A stretch of DNA of 10,916 bases from Dermatophilaceae bacterium Sec6.4 (GTDB lineage Bacteria > Actinomycetota > Actinomycetes > Actinomycetales > Dermatophilaceae): the NCBI GenBank assembly GCA_039636865.1, contig CP144171.1, positions 1 to 10,916 of the forward strand. Reading direction: 5' to 3'. Within the stretch, counting starts at the first letter, position 1. Each line of letters opens with the position of its first letter. Under the pieces are notes generated by a model, which was not told where the DNA came from, did no database searches, and saw only the letters and a program-made list of their open reading frames with translations. The position numbers and the translations under genes were made by a program. Below are positions 2,749 through 10,875 of this stretch, in pieces.

Positions 2749-2891
2749 AGGGTCTCAGCGTGGCGGCACCAAGGGGGTTTCACCAGATTAGCCACGCGGT
2801 TTGCGCTGAAATTTTGACTGGTTAAGGAAGATCTGTGCCCTCCTCATAGCTTGTACGTTATGGCGTACGCTTTGCCGTGGAGGTACTGACT
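2749..2891. promoter_or_regulatory. divergent control region with YefM-type operator
   Basis: The region separates the minus-strand HTH gene from the toxin-antitoxin operon. GTACG (2853-2857) and CGTAC (2864-2868) form a perfect inverted repeat around 6 bp, a little upstream of the antitoxin ribosome binding site GGAGG (2879-2883). Operators of the yefM-yoeB family are known for TGTACA-like palindromes upstream of the antitoxin, and TGTACG fits that pattern. A reverse-strand TAATCT (2785-2790) could be a -10 for the HTH gene, but no convincing -35 is seen. Binding by YefM or YefM-YoeB is inferred. Confidence 0.5.
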
Positions 2892-3134
2892 GTGACTGCT
2901 ATAAGTGCGACGTCGGCGCGGGCGAATTTGTATCGGTTGATTGACCAGGTGAACGCCGAGTCTCAGCCCCTGACGATTACAGGGCAACGGGGCAATGCGG
3001 TGTTGGTCAGCGAGGCTGACTGGCAGGCGATCCAGGAGACCTTGTTCTTGGAGTCGGTGCCGGGAATGGTCGAGTCGATCCATCAGGCTCGCGCTGAGGG
3101 TGTCGAGGCCGGTTCTCGCGACCTTGACTGGTGA
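2892..3134 (+). CDS. yefM: YefM/Phd-type antitoxin
   Basis: This 80-residue antitoxin would neutralise the downstream YoeB-like RNase and repress its own operon. The N-terminus (ISATSARANLYRLIDQV) and the following ITGQRGNAVLVSEADWQAIQ are the classic Phd/YefM DNA-binding and dimerization fold. The acidic and helical C-terminal part (from about residue 50) would wrap the toxin. The GTG at 2892 was chosen because GGAGG at 2879-2883 sits 8 nt upstream; an earlier GTG at 2877 overlaps that site. The stop overlaps the toxin GTG by 4 bp (3131-3134), which ensures coupled synthesis. On a mobile element this pair would act in post-segregational stabilization. Confidence 0.92.
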   Translation: MTAISATSARANLYRLIDQVNAESQPLTITGQRGNAVLVSEADWQAIQETLFLESVPGMVESIHQARAEGVEAGSRDLDW

Positions 3135-3397
3135 GTGGCTGGACGCTGGTCTACTCACGCCAGGCGCAAAAAGACGCCAAGAAGTTGGCCTCTTCAGGTC
3201 TGAAGCCGCGAGCCATGAAGCTACTCGACGTGCTGACCGAGGATCCGTTTGCGATGCCACCGCGGTACGAAAAGCTCGTGGGCAACCTGGCGGGGTGCTA
3301 CTCGCGTCGGATCAACATCCAGCACCGACTCGTCTACGAGGTGTTGCCCTATCAGCGCACAGTGCACGTGCTGCGAATGTGGTCCCACTACGAGTGA
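3131..3397 (+). CDS. yoeB: YoeB/Txe-type ribosome-dependent mRNA interferase toxin
   Basis: This 88-residue toxin of the RelE superfamily cleaves mRNA at the ribosomal A site and so stops translation. Conserved residues are visible. E47 in PRYEKL, R66 in the block RRINIQHRLVYEV, and the terminal H86-Y87 in WSHYE correspond to E46, R65, H83 and Y84 of E. coli YoeB. Its length is close to the 84 residues of that protein, so it is probably active. The GTG start is set by the 4-bp overlap with the antitoxin, and no separate ribosome binding site is expected. A short perfect hairpin lies 28 bp after the stop. Confidence is high from residues and operon layout together. Confidence 0.94.
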   Translation: MSGWTLVYSRQAQKDAKKLASSGLKPRAMKLLDVLTEDPFAMPPRYEKLVGNLAGCYSRRINIQHRLVYEVLPYQRTVHVLRMWSHYE

Positions 3398-3511: not shown

Positions 3512-3724
3512 ATGGCGAAGAGCAATGCTGATCGGTCAGAAGACCGCCGGGCGAACATCATCTTCCGCACATCGGTGGCGCGGCGAGAAGAGCTGCGTGC
3601 CATCGCTGCTTCTCATGGTGTGTCTGTGCAGATTTATCTCGAAGCCGTTGCTTTTGGTCAGCCACTAGCCAGCAAACGCTCCAGTGGCCCCAGACCCCAG
3701 CAGGAGCTCCCCCTGACCGGATGA
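3512..3724 (+). CDS. small ribbon-helix-helix-like plasmid protein
   Basis: This small protein of 70 residues has no recognised name. Residues 12-20 (RRANIIFRT) look like the beta strand of an Arc/CopG-type ribbon-helix-helix fold. They are followed by two predicted helices, the first around VARREELRAIAASHG and the second around SVQIYLEAVAFG, and a proline-rich tail. Such proteins are typically dimeric repressors of copy number, transfer or toxin genes. The ATG at 3512 was preferred because GGAAGG (3498-3503) lies 8 nt upstream; an in-frame GTG at 3488 would be an alternative. The gene sits between the toxin-antitoxin operon and the rep-like gene and is closed by a strong stem-loop, so a role in controlling replication is plausible but inferred. 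Confidence 0.7.
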   Translation: MAKSNADRSEDRRANIIFRTSVARREELRAIAASHGVSVQIYLEAVAFGQPLASKRSSGPRPQQELPLTG

Positions 3725-3746
3725 CGTTGCGGGGCAGTGCCCTGAC

Positions 3747-3790
3747 ACGACAAAGGCCGCCGTTTCCGCGGCGGCCTGTCGTCTAGCAAT
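3747..3790 (+). terminator. strong stem-loop terminator after the RHH-like gene
   Basis: A 9-bp GC stem, AGGCCGCCG (3754-3762) with CGGCGGCCT (3769-3777), closes a 6-nt loop. It is extended by ACGAC (3747-3751) pairing with GTCGT (3778-3782) across a 2-nt AA bulge. The sequence after it is only moderately T-rich (TAGCAATTT), as is common for actinobacterial terminators. It separates the small upstream gene from the rep-like gene, so the latter needs its own promoter in the following 60 bp. A further short dyad, GCCGG/CCGGC around 3802-3818, lies in that gap. Confidence 0.65.
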
Positions 3791-3851
3791 TTAAGTTCTG
3801 CGCCGGTTAGCAGCCGGCTACGAATTCGTTTCTCGCCTGAGAGGTGGCTTC

Positions 3852-5054
3852 GTGCTACCCACTTTAGATCATCCTGCCCGTCTGGGCCAAGACCCTGACC
3901 AGATGCATCAGCGTGTCCTGACGCACCGCCGGTGCGCGCCACGTGATTCCGCGTATGTGGAGTTGGTGTGTCGTGCGCGCCCTGGTGTGTTGCCGAGGTG
4001 GCATCAAGACGACCGTGGCCCTCGTAACGCGACCCGGGGGCATCACACATACGCCCCTGCGGGTGCGTATTCAGCTGTTGCGGTGTGGGTGAGTCGTGAG
4101 CATTGGTTGGGCGTGGTGGTGCCGGTGGCGTTGGCGTTCGGTGCTGAAGAGTTGCGGGGTCGAGTGTCGCCTGGGTTGATGCGCCGGTATTTGGCTGTGC
4201 GGTCTGGGTATGCGTTGGCGGGGACGGGTCGGCGGGCGATTGTGCGCCCGGACACGGTCGCTTCGGTGTTGGGGGTGAGTGTGAACACGGTGAAGGTGTG
4301 TCAGCGTCTGGCGCGGCGGATTGGCCTGGAGGTGGTGATCCAGGCGGGGCGGATGCTCACCTTGGAGGAGTGCCTCGCGGCCCGTCGGCGGGGTTCGCGT
4401 CAGCGGGGGTTATCCACAGAAGTTGCGTTCACTACGCCCCGGGCTATCCCTGTTGCCTTGTGGATAGATACCCCTACCAGAGGTAACCATTCCCCAGACC
4501 GCCAAGACTGTGAGAACACTTCCTTCAAGCGAAAGACGGCCGCGAGCGGCCAAGAAAAGGCCGCGGCTTCGCCGCGCCGGCCTCAACAAAAACGGGGTAA
4601 CCCTGCGGTGGCCCGGAATCTGGCGCTGCAGGTCACAGCACAGCTGCCGTGGTTGGCCGGTGAGAGCCCCCGGCGCCTTGCCCCGGCCCTGACACGGTTC
4701 GTGACGTGTTCCCCGTCGTGGACCGCGCAGGATTTGTTGGGCGCGTTGGTTGATGCTGCGGTACGCACCGGGCAACGTTCCCCCCTGGCCAATCGAGCAG
4801 TGACCACCCGACCGGCGGTGCTGTTCGCGGCGATGCTGGCTGGCCTGGACGAACAGGGCGATTACCCCGGGCCCGCTTTCCTACCAGCTGCACCAGCGTC
4901 GGTGTCGGTGTGTGAGCGGCCCGAGTGCGACGGGTGGATCACCACCCACGACAACGCAGGCAGCGTCACCGCGGCCCGCCCCTGCCCCGAGGTAGCTCAC
5001 CGTCGCGCGACCCAAGCTCACGCCGTGTCCGAGAGGGATGGGTGGGATTTGTAA
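3852..5054 (+). CDS. putative plasmid replication initiator (Rep-like HTH protein)
   Basis: The predicted 400-residue protein resembles actinobacterial plasmid Rep-type proteins; this rests on recalled family resemblance, not on a search. Residues about 75-125 form an alpha-helical or winged domain. A clear helix-turn-helix lies at about 131-165 (RPDTVASVLGVSVNTVKVCQRLARRIG), followed by a wing and RQRGLSTEVA at 184-192. Residues about 205-250 are a low-complexity, basic linker. The C-terminal part (251-345) is helical, and C354, C359 and C378 could contribute to a small metal site. The GTG start has GAGAGG at 3839-3844, 7 nt upstream. The linker DNA holds DnaA-box-like motifs and a hairpin. 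No rolling-circle HUH or helicase motif is seen, so the protein may be a theta-type iteron-independent initiator, or a regulator instead. Confidence 0.65.
   Translation: MLPTLDHPARLGQDPDQMHQRVLTHRRCAPRDSAYVELVCRARPGVLPRWHQDDRGPRNATRGHHTYAPAGAYSAVAVWVSREHWLGVVVPVALAFGAEELRGRVSPGLMRRYLAVRSGYALAGTGRRAIVRPDTVASVLGVSVNTVKVCQRLARRIGLEVVIQAGRMLTLEECLAARRRGSRQRGLSTEVAFTTPRAIPVALWIDTPTRGNHSPDRQDCENTSFKRKTAASGQEKAAASPRRPQQKRGNPAVARNLALQVTAQLPWLAGESPRRLAPALTRFVTCSPSWTAQDLLGALVDAAVRTGQRSPLANRAVTTRPAVLFAAMLAGLDEQGDYPGPAFLPAAPASVSVCERPECDGWITTHDNAGSVTAARPCPEVAHRRATQAHAVSERDGWDL
4410..4467. other. two convergent DnaA-box-like sequences inside the rep-like gene
   Basis: TTATCCACA (4410-4418) matches the standard DnaA box exactly. 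TGTGGATAG (4459-4467) is an inverted copy with one mismatch. The stretch up to about 4530 is less GC-rich than its surroundings and falls in the weakly conserved linker of the protein. The exact box encodes LST within a segment I believe is conserved in these proteins, so the match may partly reflect protein coding. An origin role is inferred. Confidence 0.45.
4550..4583 (-). terminator. terminator-shaped hairpin on the minus strand inside the rep-like gene
   Basis: On the minus strand AGGCC and GCGGC (4583-4571, separated by a 3-nt bulge) pair with GCCGC and GGCCT (4567-4558) around a 3-nt loop. The hairpin is followed by TTTTCTT (4558-4552). That is the form of an intrinsic terminator, and on the plus strand no T-tract follows. 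It lies antisense to the rep-like reading frame, next to a GGCCGC/GCGGCC palindrome (4538-4551). An antisense transcript ending here would be a copy-control candidate, but no clear minus-strand promoter was identified. Confidence 0.45.
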
Positions 5055-6809: not shown

Positions 6810-7060
6810 CTATGGATCCCTAGACCGGAAGGGGCGATCCGGTCAGGAGATGCTCTGTTGGTATCACTGGTGGTCTGGGCCTTGATCCGCTGATCGGCGG
6901 ATCGGCGGATCGGCGGATCGGCGGATTTGCCGCAGTGCTTCGCTCATCGTCGTGGACGATGTCGGTTCGGTGCGGCCGTCGCCCAGCAATGCCTGTGCGG
7001 CAGTTACGGCGTCGACTGGGTCGGGCTTATCCGCGGGGGCTGATGCGTTGGCCCGGCCGG
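6810..7060 (-). pseudogene. decayed IS110-family transposase fragment
   Basis: In one minus-strand frame (about 7058-6900) the translation reads DKPDPVDAVTAAQALLGDGRT and then SEALRQIRRSA. This matches the IS110-family DEDD transposase region K-S-DP-I-DA...AA.A.L.GR.T...EA.R.LR..RRSA. The frame then runs into a tandem 8-bp repeat and stops at 6864. A second frame directly after the repeat (about 6887 down to 6840) continues with IKAQTTSDTN, resembling the family's A-V-K-A-R-T-Q-A-TNQL continuation. The fragment has no N-terminus and no C-terminal serine-containing domain, so it is dead. Its left neighbour on the same strand overlaps its start by a few bases. The assignment rests on motif order, not on alignment. 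Confidence 0.6.
6892..6926. repeat. 8-bp tandem repeat (GATCGGCG)n
   Basis: Four exact head-to-tail copies of GATCGGCG occupy 6892-6923, followed by GAT. The unit length is not a multiple of three, so every gain or loss of a copy changes the reading frame. It lies exactly where the IS110-like frame breaks, which makes slippage here the likely cause of the frameshift. Confidence 0.9.
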
Positions 7061-7729: not shown

Positions 7730-8015
7730 GGGGCTACTTGTCCTTGGATAGAGTGCGTATCAGAGGTGTACATTACGGCGCGGTCGAAATTGCAGGATGT
7801 CGCGTTGCGCGAACGGGTGTCGAGGCCCGCAGGTATATTGCGGCCCCCGAAAGTTACCAGGGCCAGGTTGAATTTAAGGTCCCGCGGGTGAGGCCGACAA
7901 TCGACAGCTTTATCAGTGCAATGTGGGGCACCAATCGCACCGCGCGCTGACCAGCCACTCCCGTGCAGCAATCCCCTAATGACGAGCCTTGCAGACGATC
8001 CGTCGCTGGCCGAGG
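7730..8015. other. intergenic region without a supported gene
   Basis: No convincing coding frame or RNA gene is visible. The short open frames here have scrambled composition and no ribosome binding site. The region must hold the promoter of the minus-strand exported protein. A reverse-strand TAATGT around 7770-7776 is a possible -10, but no clear -35 accompanies it. Confidence 0.4.
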
Positions 8016-8045
8016 TTCCGCAGTTAATGTTCCGTAACTGCGGTA
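8016..8045. other. lox/dif-like candidate recombination site next to the integrase
   Basis: Two arms, TTCCGCAGTTA (8016-8026) and TAACTGCGGTA (8035-8045), are inverted repeats with one mismatch in 11 bp; the inner 9 bp are perfect. They flank an 8-bp asymmetric spacer, ATGTTCCG (8027-8034). Arms of about 9-13 bp around a 6-8 bp spacer are the classical core site of a tyrosine recombinase. The site lies 78 bp upstream of such a gene. Its use as an attachment or resolution site is inferred; an operator is the main alternative. Confidence 0.6.
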
Positions 8046-8109
8046 CATGATGACGCGGACCCCGGAATGGCGCGGTTTGGTCGCCCGCTGATGTAGTTCC
8101 CAGCACCTG

Positions 8110-8122
8110 ATTAACTGCGGAA
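8110..8122. promoter_or_regulatory. third half-site abutting the integrase start codon
   Basis: ATTAACTGCGGAA (8110-8122) is an exact 13-bp inverted copy of 8016-8028. It ends one base before the integrase ATG, so it takes up the place of the ribosome binding site. A recombinase bound here would block its own translation start or transcription. Autoregulation, or use as an accessory arm site, is inferred. Confidence 0.55.
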
Positions 8123-8123
8123 T

Positions 8124-9080
8124 ATGCCCCCAACGACCCCGCACCGCCCCCTCGGCCCCGTCGGCGACCTCGAGCCCGACTCGGGCGGCGGGATCAGTTG
8201 GGCGACGGCCGTGGCCGCGTTCCTGTGCCGCCCGACCGCGCCAACGACTAAACGCACCTACGCGATCCTGTTGGGTCGGATCGGCGCGCAGTTACCCGAG
8301 GGCGCGGGCCTGGGTGATCTGAGCGCGTACGACTACCAGGCCGCGCTGGTCGGCGCCTATGACAACGCGGCACCGGCCACGTTCAACCTCGCCACCGGCG
8401 CCCTGCGCGGGCTGTTGAACCATGCCGCCGACTGGGAATGGTGCCCCGACACCGTGCCGTACCGATTCGCTCGCCTGGCCCGGCCACGAAAGATCACCCA
8501 CGATCACAACCGGGCGCTGACACGGGAGGTCATCGAGCGACTGTGCACCAACCCACGGCACGGGCTGCGGGAACGGACCTTGTGGCGGATGCTCTACGAA
8601 ACAGCCGCCCGCGCGAACGAGGTCCTGCGCCTAGACGTCGGCGACCTGGACCTGAGTAACCGCACCGCCCACACCATCCGCAAAGGCGGCGACCGCGACA
8701 CCCTGCACTACGCCACCGGTACCGCACGCCTGCTACCTCGACTGCTCGCTGGGCGCACCGGCGGGCCGGTGTTCCTATCCAGCCGGCCACCCCGCACCAC
8801 CGCGCTACCCGCAGTGATCGACCTTGACACAGCCACGGGTCACGCCCGGCTGTCCTACCGCCAGGCCGCCGCTCTCTTCACCGACGCCACCAACGGAGCG
8901 ACCCTGCACCAACTACGCCACTCTGCCTTGACCCACCTCGCCAACACCGGCACCAGCGGCCCCCTCCTCATGGCCAAATCCCGACACGCCGCACTGACCA
9001 GCCTGCAGCAATACGTCCACCCATCACAGACCGCCATTGCGCAGCTGACTACCGGCCTAGATCACAACGACCGAACTTAA
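8124..9080 (+). CDS. tyrosine recombinase / integrase
   Basis: This 318-residue site-specific recombinase is intact. An N-terminal SAM-like core-binding domain spans about 23-120, and the catalytic domain spans about 130-305. The catalytic set is visible: R163 in AARANEVLRL, K187 in IRKGG, H262 and R265 in HQLRH, H288 in KSRHAAL, and the nucleophile Y297 in QQYVHPS. The length fits Xer-like or plasmid/transposon recombinases; it lacks the long N-terminal arm-binding domain of lambda-type integrases, which agrees with a simple lox/dif-like site. The ATG at 8124 has only a poor purine stretch before it. Upstream lies the inverted-repeat site, and downstream a foreign-looking membrane gene begins 26 bp later. 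It may resolve multimers, integrate the element, or move a cassette. Confidence 0.94.
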   Translation: MPPTTPHRPLGPVGDLEPDSGGGISWATAVAAFLCRPTAPTTKRTYAILLGRIGAQLPEGAGLGDLSAYDYQAALVGAYDNAAPATFNLATGALRGLLNHAADWEWCPDTVPYRFARLARPRKITHDHNRALTREVIERLCTNPRHGLRERTLWRMLYETAARANEVLRLDVGDLDLSNRTAHTIRKGGDRDTLHYATGTARLLPRLLAGRTGGPVFLSSRPPRTTALPAVIDLDTATGHARLSYRQAAALFTDATNGATLHQLRHSALTHLANTGTSGPLLMAKSRHAALTSLQQYVHPSQTAIAQLTTGLDHNDRT

Positions 9081-9109: not shown

Positions 9110-10372
9110 AAGCGATTAAGCCGCAATTCAAATGTGACTACATGGACGATAGTAATAGCGACAGCATTAGTTGGGATTATATTTCTCTGCGCCCCACGGC
9201 TTTATGGCTGGCAATTAGGCCACGTTCACAAAGAAGATGGAACAGTATTCCTGTCCGAATGGACCCTTAATGGATGGTCTTCAGTTACGACGGATTACAC
9301 CGGCTATTTGCATGTTGTGCCAAGATTGTTAACGGCATTAGGGGCCGCGGGCCCCCCTGGATGGTTCCCGATTATTATAGGTTTCTTGTGTGCCCTTTGG
9401 CGTGCTTGGCTGACCATCATTGCTTTCGTTGCCTTTCGATCCCGAGGTATTGATTGGCGATGGTCTTTGGCGGCAGGTTCAATGTTTCTTTTTGTACCCG
9501 TCGGGCAACAGGAAGTACTGGGGAATTTAACTAATCTTCGATGGTTTTGCGACGCAGGAGCAGTAGTAATTTTAATCGGTCAATTCCGCCGATTCTGGGT
9601 AGTTTTAGCTGGCTTGACGCTTGCATTATGCGCACTTACCGACCCGCTAATTTTGCTCCTTTTTCCACTTTTCCTTTGGGCTGTAATAAAAAACCAAAGA
9701 GAATCGCGGTTTGTTCCAATTTTGGGAGGCCTAGGGGCACTTGGTCAGTGGTTAGCTTTGAAGCCAAGCGCACGCTCGGCTTCAGATATGTATCTAAACC
9801 AACCAATCGAGTCGATCCATCAGCTAGTTGTACGCGGTCCGATTGAAGCCCAGTATGGTCAAAATGGAGCGGAAGTAGCTATCCGTATTGCAGGCGTTTC
9901 TATTGCCTTAATTCTTATCGTATTGCCAGCAGTAGTGCTCTTCATTAAGCCACGTCTAATACCCATAGTGCTAGCTATTTCTGGAATCTATCTACTCGCC
10001 CTGACTCTTATCTTCGCGGATTTAAAGCAAATCCCACTGTCATCTTGGTTCAGCGTTGGTCAAGCTTCACGCTACGCAGTCCCGGCTTCTATCTTAATTG
10101 GCGCCGCATTAATTCTTTCTTATCCTGAGTTATTGAAAGGCAAATATCGTCCGGTTGCGCTGCTCTCGGCTGTTCTACTCGTCGTAGCAATAGGTGCCGA
10201 TGCCACGGGGGACCGCTACAACACCCAAGGACCAGAATGGTCAAAAACAGTTAGCGATGCGCGTGCGAGTTGCACCAAAAGTGGGACTCGTTTGATCGTC
10301 GTACCTCTAACACCGAGTGGAGTTCCAACTAAGTGGACCGCCAAACTTCCATGTACATGGTTAGAGAAATAG
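9107..10372 (+). CDS. polytopic membrane protein, possibly GT-C-type glycosyltransferase
   Basis: The 421-residue product has about nine to eleven hydrophobic segments. The first spans residues 12-29, and the last lies before a roughly 60-residue hydrophilic C-terminal tail with two cysteines. The first extracytoplasmic loop carries HKEDGTVFL (41-49) with E43-D44, then a conserved-looking GYLHVVPRLL (66-75). Acidic pairs after the first helix and a PRLL helix recall GT-C fold polyprenyl-phosphate-dependent glycosyltransferases of actinobacteria, but no named family is certain and the substrate is unknown. Codons such as TTA, ATT and AAT are frequent, in clear contrast with neighbours, which suggests recent acquisition from a lower-GC donor. 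A tandem array begins immediately after the TAG. No ribosome binding site precedes the GTG, so the mRNA may be leaderless. Confidence 0.85.
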   Translation: MKRLSRNSNVTTWTIVIATALVGIIFLCAPRLYGWQLGHVHKEDGTVFLSEWTLNGWSSVTTDYTGYLHVVPRLLTALGAAGPPGWFPIIIGFLCALWRAWLTIIAFVAFRSRGIDWRWSLAAGSMFLFVPVGQQEVLGNLTNLRWFCDAGAVVILIGQFRRFWVVLAGLTLALCALTDPLILLLFPLFLWAVIKNQRESRFVPILGGLGALGQWLALKPSARSASDMYLNQPIESIHQLVVRGPIEAQYGQNGAEVAIRIAGVSIALILIVLPAVVLFIKPRLIPIVLAISGIYLLALTLIFADLKQIPLSSWFSVGQASRYAVPASILIGAALILSYPELLKGKYRPVALLSAVLLVVAIGADATGDRYNTQGPEWSKTVSDARASCTKSGTRLIVVPLTPSGVPTKWTAKLPCTWLEK

Positions 10373-10875
10373 TCGCGGTCTCGCCCTGGGGGCTCGCCGC
10401 TGGTGGGGTCGCGGTCTCGCCCTGGGGGCTCGCCGCTGGTGGGGTCGCGGTCTCGCCCTGGGGGCTCGCCGCTGGTGGGGTCGCGGTCTCGCCCTGGGGG
10501 CTCGCCGCTGGTGGGGTCGCGGTCTCGCCCTGGGGGCTCGCCGCTGGTGGGGTCGCGGTCTCGCCCTGGGGGGCTCGCCGCTGGTGGGGTCGCGGTCTCG
10601 CCCTGGGGGGCTCGCCGCTGGTGGGGTCGCGGTCTCGCCCTGGGGGGCTCGCCGCTGGTGGGGTCGCGGTCTCGCCCTGGGGGGCTCGCCGCTGGTGGGG
10701 TCGCGGTCTCGCCCTGGGGGGCTCGCCGCTGGTGGGGTCGCGGTCTCGCCCTGGGGGGCTCGCCGCTGGTGGGGTCGCGGTCTCGCCCTGGGGGGCTCGC
10801 CGCTGGTGGGGTCGCGGTCTCGCCCTGGGGGCTCGCCGCTGGTGGGGTCGCGGTCTCGCCCTGGGGGCTCGCCGC
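10373..10875. repeat. 36/37-bp minisatellite, 13 full units plus a partial unit
   Basis: Units begin TCGCGGTCTCGCCCTG, continue with a G-run and CTCGCCGCTGG, and end TGGGG. Five 36-bp units (10373-10552) with a five-G run are followed by seven 37-bp units (10553-10811) with a six-G run. One 36-bp unit (10812-10847) and a truncated unit (10848 to about 10875) follow. Within a unit CTCGCC occurs twice, so the unit itself seems to come from an older duplication of about half its length. Units are otherwise identical, with no unique spacers. The single-base variant is the only difference and is grouped in blocks. The array is open in the plus frames only because the unit has no stop codon; the 37-bp units shift the frame each time, so it is not a gene. 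Confidence 0.95.

Follow-up and report, generated by a model that had tools for sequence, protein, structure and literature searches.

A tyrosine recombinase gene of a putative small actinomycete plasmid with a two-arm core and a helically phased third half-site: a probable self-contained resolution system

Three copies of one half-site precede a tyrosine recombinase gene on a contig of 10,916 bp, the whole of which was analysed here and is referred to as the window: A and B face each other as the arms of a core, and C lies directly in front of the start codon. The arrangement recurs beside relatives of the recombinase, with arms that change from clade to clade and with a distance between core and C that follows the helical repeat of DNA. 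Judged from these sequence features, recombinase and half-sites probably form a self-contained resolution system, in which recombinase bound at C would join the core in a complex that depends on helical phase and would probably also reach the promoter of the gene. To our knowledge, the choice between resolution and fusion by simple tyrosine recombinases is understood in few models, namely cer/psi with PepA and ArgR, and TnpI/IRS. The natural spacing variants of 66, 77, 87 and 98 bp allow a direct test of the role of helical phase, and a widespread family whose site may consist of just three half-sites provides a rule by which such sites can be recognized in sequence data. Moreover, a function is suggested for many actinomycete plasmid proteins annotated only as "site-specific integrase".

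Plasmid and recombinase

The window comprises the entire contig C1 of a genome of three contigs and 3.79 Mb, of which the largest contig (C2) accounts for 3.72 Mb. Its genes include those for MobC, a relaxase of the MobA/VirD2 type, a Phd/YefM-Txe/YoeB pair and the tyrosine recombinase, a content that best fits a small mobilizable plasmid. The toxin-antitoxin genes (antitoxin Phd/YefM, toxin Txe/YoeB) are located at 2877-3397, and TIGR02116 scored above its cut-off there. An open reading frame at 3852-5054 (400 aa) matched neither Pfam nor NCBIfam; judged by its position only, we take it for the replication protein. Positions 3679-4444 match a gene on a Yimella plasmid at the DNA level. Among the ten window proteins scanned, no match to a transposase was obtained. 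Tandem repeats were observed with a 37-bp unit at 10372-10875 (13.8 copies, 99% match) and with the 8-bp unit GATCGGCG at 6884-6926 (5.4 copies).

The recombinase (318 aa, positions 8124..9080, plus strand) was assigned by the Pfam profile Phage_integrase (1.9e-16), by alignment and by its structure model. Residues R163, K187, H262, R265, H288 and Y297 are invariant in 42 aligned sequences and presumably fill the catalytic roles of the R-K-H-R-H/W-Y signature of tyrosine recombinases, which is complete in the window protein. The AlphaFold model (mean pLDDT 91) has helices at residues 26-118, followed by the catalytic domain. A core-binding and a catalytic domain are thus predicted and an arm-binding domain is absent from the model, in the manner of simple-site enzymes, which agrees with the short recombinase without arm-binding domain that a preliminary description of this DNA had proposed. 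Fold matches of the model included XerA (best PDB match, E 1.9e-9), XerD, Cre and lambda Int, with TM-scores of only about 0.4; by sequence, XerD was the best PDB match. The protein stays far under the cut-off of every NCBIfam Xer equivalog (best NF040815, 53.6 bits vs 220; XerC, 36.3 bits vs 335), and membership in the XerC, XerD, XerA or XerS equivalogs was rejected on these scores. According to the model, the recombinase would work like a Xer or Cre protein, yet it stands outside those equivalog groups.

Half-sites in the window

The core left arm, half-site A (TTCCGCAGTTAAT), was located at 8016..8028 on the plus strand by a pattern scan and an inverted-repeat scan and has co-varying counterparts beside relatives of the recombinase. 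The asymmetric 8-bp central region ATGTTCCG (8027..8034) is flanked by perfect 9-bp arms, and the core right arm, half-site B, follows at 8035..8046 on the minus strand (12 nt, one mismatch to A). Counted as an inverted repeat, the core arms extend over 8015-8026 and 8035-8046 (12 nt, one mismatch, 8 nt apart), which bears out the inverted arms around an asymmetric 8-bp spacer of the preliminary description. The third half-site, C (8110..8122, minus strand), is oriented like B, lies 77 bp from it, start to start, and ends at 8122, one base ahead of the recombinase ATG at 8124. A (8016-8028) and C (8110-8122) are complementary at 13 of 13 positions (100%), with 81 nt between them; the perfect inverted 13-bp half-site one base before the ATG, likewise claimed earlier, was thereby recovered in full.

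Exact matches to TTCCGCAGTTAA in the window are restricted to 8016-8027 (plus strand) and 8111-8122 (minus strand), and B is the sole match with two mismatches. When up to three mismatches were allowed, nine matches were present in the window, a number reached by 18 of 200 shuffled sequences, so that the count alone is not unusual. By eye, a possible but doubtful fourth half-site was seen shortly before C, in degenerate form as TTCCCAG at window 8097-8103 and as CCGCAG at approximately 4777 of the related locus L034; its spacing to C is unlike the core spacing. A promoter scan gave no match to a sigma70-type promoter near the recombinase start.

Triads beside relatives of the recombinase

Relatives were collected by tblastn against plasmids, which yielded 167 records with identities under 60% throughout (117 from Streptomyces, 15 from Rhodococcus and 7 from Nocardia), and by searches of 393, 251, 250 and 35 genomes (overlapping sets), of which 28 (the own genome included), 20, 66 and 6, respectively, contained relatives at the thresholds set. 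Twelve loci were taken from plasmids, one from genome contigs and the rest from the genome searches, with at most 30 loci from each search; viral contigs contained no relative. The 104 upstream regions were reduced to 91 non-redundant ones, the gene starts of which were estimated from alignments, so that some triads may be missed.

A triad was termed strong when its summed mismatches did not exceed two. Strong triads were present in 32 of the 91 upstream regions, in comparison to 3 of 455 dinucleotide shuffles, 5 of 91 scans in mirror orientation and 0 of 90 gene interiors; two of the 32 (L115 and L139) look like chance. The upstream scan gave no strong triad in 59 of the 91 regions and no clear core in 54 of the 91. 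Conservation of the arms beside homologous recombinases, on which the preliminary description hinged, was found in the form of a clear core in 37 of the 91 regions, including those of the closest relatives.

The same layout was detected beside relatives down to approximately 37% identity. The arms differ strongly among clades (CCGCAGTTA, TGACACAGA, TGTCAGATA, CTACCGGATA, GTACGTGATA and others), and C tracks its own core. These conserved, co-varying arms and the predicted fold support the earlier reading that the enzyme is a simple-site tyrosine recombinase which has a core of its own. The core spacer measures 8 bp in the relatives from the same-genus genome G002 and 9 bp in most distant relatives, and C lies within about 30 bp of the start codon in relatives with a readable start. 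Further conserved blocks were noticed by eye, namely GGCGCTAAGGAGTT ahead of A in the pFAJ2600 clade and, in relatives, a CGACCTGCGGGAAC-like block about 44 bp and GCGACTC about 10-15 bp ahead of C. Such blocks are possible contacts of host factors or further contacts of the recombinase, and the blocks that many relatives share in the stretch from B to C mean that the phased partner might be another protein.

Helical phasing of the third half-site

In 30 of the 32 strong triads the distance from B to C is 66-68, 76-78, 87 or 98 bp, with individual values of 66 (9 cases), 67 (5), 68 (1), 76 (1), 77 (3), 78 (9), 87 (1) and 98 bp (1). The two remaining cases, at 48 and 141 bp, are GC-rich and chance-like. 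When periods between 8 and 14 bp were tested on the 32 strong cases, the best fit was obtained at 10.6 bp. Loci chosen by the core alone (37 of 91) carried C-oriented half-sites at 66-68 (12), 76-78 (14) and 98 bp (1) and nine elsewhere; 30 of these hits were in phase and 6 off phase, and the opposite orientation gave 12 scattered hits. Apart from the 30 phased strong triads, 61 regions remain, and 21 of these have a weaker candidate (12 in phase, 9 off).

A recombinase tree (n=33) was built from 29 strong cases together with L064, L088, L094 and L123 (three mismatches), with L035, L115 and L139 excluded, and the spacing class changes on it at least seven times. Seven random jumps would without exception land no more than 1.5 bp from a whole turn with a probability of approximately 1.4e-4, and a Rayleigh value of about 3e-7 was obtained for 19 clade representatives with a statistic that ignores kinship. 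L077 and L085 sit on long branches with unsure placement in the tree, and kinship is only partly corrected for in the phasing statistics. Insertions or deletions of one turn were recognized by eye between B and the middle block, in L068 (77) compared with L092 and pFAJ2600 (66), and adjoining C, in L129 (67) compared with L122-L128 (78). L056 (98) has an arm in common with L053/L054 (67), again by eye.

Protein-blind search and the role of C

A pattern consisting of the three half-sites only, with 48-77 free bases before C, was searched in 397 genomes of another order. Six matches were obtained in 6 of the 397 genomes, with distances of 77, 67, 66, 66, 66 and 66 bp, all in phase; the reversed-pattern control gave none. 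Five of the six were new (the one in G626 was already known) and three of the six look near-identical. A recombinase relative adjoins five of the six; the other, L176, had none within 1.5 kb and is probably a relic, because it retains the ribosome-binding stretch of recombinase-bearing relatives. A complete 66-bp triad was also located between converging open reading frames on a 6.4-kb contig (L170), where no recombinase relative was found. As a recombination site this triad would be easier to explain than as an operator, though it may also be a relic. Orphan complete triads were not accepted as proof of a resolution role, L176 being a probable relic and L170 less clear.

These results bear on the question whether C is purely an operator, at which bound recombinase, perhaps in a loop with the core, represses the gene that encodes it, with recombination needing A and B only. 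We regard this as unlikely. The position of C at the gene start in the window and near the start in relatives suits such a role, and a phased repression loop is the main rival to a phased recombination complex, since it predicts the identical spacing pattern. Simple occlusion, however, requires no phasing to the core, and the L170 triad counts against an operator to the extent that it is not a relic. Autoregulation alone is not supported as the whole role of C. More likely, because a promoter-blocking operator needs no shared helical face over 66-98 bp, C is a component of the recombination complex that may have an autoregulatory effect in addition.

Close relatives and chromosomal copies

The genome G002 encodes a recombinase of 77% identity on a 14,994-bp contig (L034, contig C4) and a broken copy of 67% identity on its chromosome (L035). 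L034 and L035 keep the triad, with the core arm changed to CCGCAGATA on both sides and the same 12-mer, TTAACTGCGGAA, serving as C. Relatives of 71-83% identity (P0002-P0004) are represented by metagenome contigs. From the start of A to the end of C, the G002 copies measure 107 and 106 bp and the window 107 bp. Approximately 3840-7940 of L035 represents a degenerate C4-type plasmid segment in the G002 chromosome, with blocks 81-94% identical to L034. Among 186 family genomes, the exact pattern CCGCAGWTA-8-TAWCTGCGG was found only in the host genome G000 (plasmid and chromosome) and in G002 (contig C4 and relic), and the reversed-pattern control gave 0 matches in the 186.

A host dif was considered and rejected: the exact pattern is absent from 184 of the 186 family genomes, G001 included, and does not occur once per chromosome in the genus. 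In G001, the nearest candidates are two sites with two mismatches each. The size and spacer of the core are dif-like, but the arms change in step with the neighbouring recombinase from clade to clade, and with the pattern missing from nearly all of these family genomes, chance repeats or a host chromosomal dif borrowed by the plasmid are very improbable explanations.

On the host chromosome an orphan core was detected at G000:C2:2301242-2301267 (L041 1501-1526; L047 9943-9968). Its arms are identical to those of the plasmid core, with two differences in the central region, and it shares 45 bp of the plasmid left flank (7971..8015), as part of a 73-bp match at 7971-8043 with 86% identity. By exact pattern it is the only orphan core in the 186 family genomes besides the G002 relic. 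The orphan core overlaps the 3' end of a serine resolvase open reading frame. The surrounding island of about 7.3 kb (L047 approximately 4740-12060) is strain-specific, being absent from the same place in G001 and G002, and contains genes for PIN, three PemK/MazF and one Fic/Doc toxin and for two serine resolvases (one a partial match). The left flank was rejected as a conserved short gene, as the alignment of 73 vs 72 bases does not keep the frame (by eye), and weak plasmid matches to it (6 of 13 records listed, E 0.04 to 6) look by eye like codon-usage coincidences.

Were the recombinase an integrase and the core its attP, the plasmid would insert at chromosomal sites such as G000:C2:2301242, and the occurrence of the same arms and left flank within the strain-specific island of the host chromosome would be in line with this. 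The two sites differ, however, at two central positions, only one such chromosomal site without an attL/attR pair was found, in G002 the chromosomal relic and the plasmid stay colinear through the core, which is therefore no junction there, and the model has no arm-binding domain; integration is thus an improbable function. Module shuffling is known for Xer/pdif sites, and orphan cores could likewise flag modules, of toxin-antitoxin genes or of other kinds, that the recombinase has moved. The toxin and resolvase genes of the island and orphan pairs in two further genomes, G712 and G288, would fit this reading, which we nevertheless consider quite improbable: no second half-site (12-mer, up to two mismatches) was found elsewhere in the 19.9 kb around the orphan, and by exact pattern a single orphan stands in 186 family genomes besides the G002 relic. 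A toxin-antitoxin module bounded by two sites was rejected for lack of a second flanking half-site at this threshold.

G712 contains two inverted orphan sites 1.65 kb apart (L168 6095 and 7746), and the same pair is split across two contigs in G288 (L171 1314; L172 6649); at one of the G712/G288 sites the triad, at 66 bp, is nearly complete. G712 was not among the genomes with a recombinase match in the 251-genome search, and its orphan pair is possibly an invertible segment or a relic.

Replicon contexts and proposed function

Triads were present on six circular plasmids (pFAJ2600, pREC1, two from Amycolatopsis and two from Nocardia) and also on four linear replicons (L048, L055, L058 and L059), where they argue against dimer resolution, since dimers are not expected there. 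By pattern, the window, L034 and pFAJ2600 carry one core each, which corresponds to the single site per replicon of dimer resolution. A Tn3-family transposase match was found within about 1.5 kb at L055, L068/L091, L095, L119, L076, L069, L139 and L057; only L055 and L068 of these nine transposase-adjacent loci have a strong phased triad, L091 being the same place as L068. The plasmid and transposon contexts point to the resolution of dimers and cointegrates.

In the resolution system favoured here, the recombinase would exchange strands at the core A-B and so resolve plasmid dimers, and relatives adjoining Tn3-family transposases would resolve cointegrates at their core. Two subunits would be bound at the core and a further one at C, on a fixed face of the helix approximately 66.5 + n x 10.5 bp from B. 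Across the bent segment of 66-98 bp, the C-bound subunit may touch the subunits at the core or be wrapped into one complex with them, and this phased complex would favour or gate productive synapsis between sites that are directly repeated within a single molecule. Because C is located at the gene start, its occupancy would probably also lower transcription of the recombinase gene; a putative negative autoregulation via C is plausible from its position. More tentatively, a large actinomycete family might use a three-half-site res, in which the single distant, phased C gates synapsis topologically and represses the gene. With the same reserve, the odd subunit at C could be regarded as a topological filter made of one protein, with an unusually small accessory site.

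Comparison with known systems

The nearest known system is TnpI/IRS. In the Bacillus Tn3-family transposons Tn4430 and Tn5401, an IR1-IR2 core and the motifs DR1 and DR2 are located upstream of tnpI, and in Tn5401 the binding of TnpI modulates expression (PMC7157771). As in TnpI/IRS, one tyrosine recombinase is combined with a core and an extra motif upstream of its own gene, a likeness of sequence motifs only, and some relatives of the window recombinase adjoin Tn3-family transposases. In contrast to TnpI/IRS, the window module does not lie within a Tn3-family transposon, and instead of the two extra motifs DR1 and DR2 there is one strong half-site, phased and at 66-98 bp from B. DR1 and DR2 lie close to their core.

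The recombinase of pFAJ2600 from Rhodococcus erythropolis, annotated as site-specific integrase, is a homologue (40.9% identity) with a triad at 66 bp and differs from the window in this spacing (66 instead of 77) and in its 9-bp spacer. De Mot in 1997 reportedly named it PmrA and proposed multimer resolution. XerS/difSL and XerH/difH resemble the window in that a single Xer-type recombinase adjoins its own site; these systems are chromosomal and FtsK-dependent, and the part of their description used here mentions no third half-site (PMC5357621). The simple two-arm core is shared with Cre/loxP and FLP/FRT, and Cre is among the fold matches; unlike the window site, loxP lacks an accessory half-site. 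The third element of FRT adjoins the core, and the D protein (ResD) of mini-F is a resolvase that also represses its own gene. No description of a phased third half-site for tyrosine recombinases was found in the titles and abstract openings of the literature searched. A single half-site, distant from the core and, judged by its spacing, in phase with it, is what differs from TnpI/IRS.
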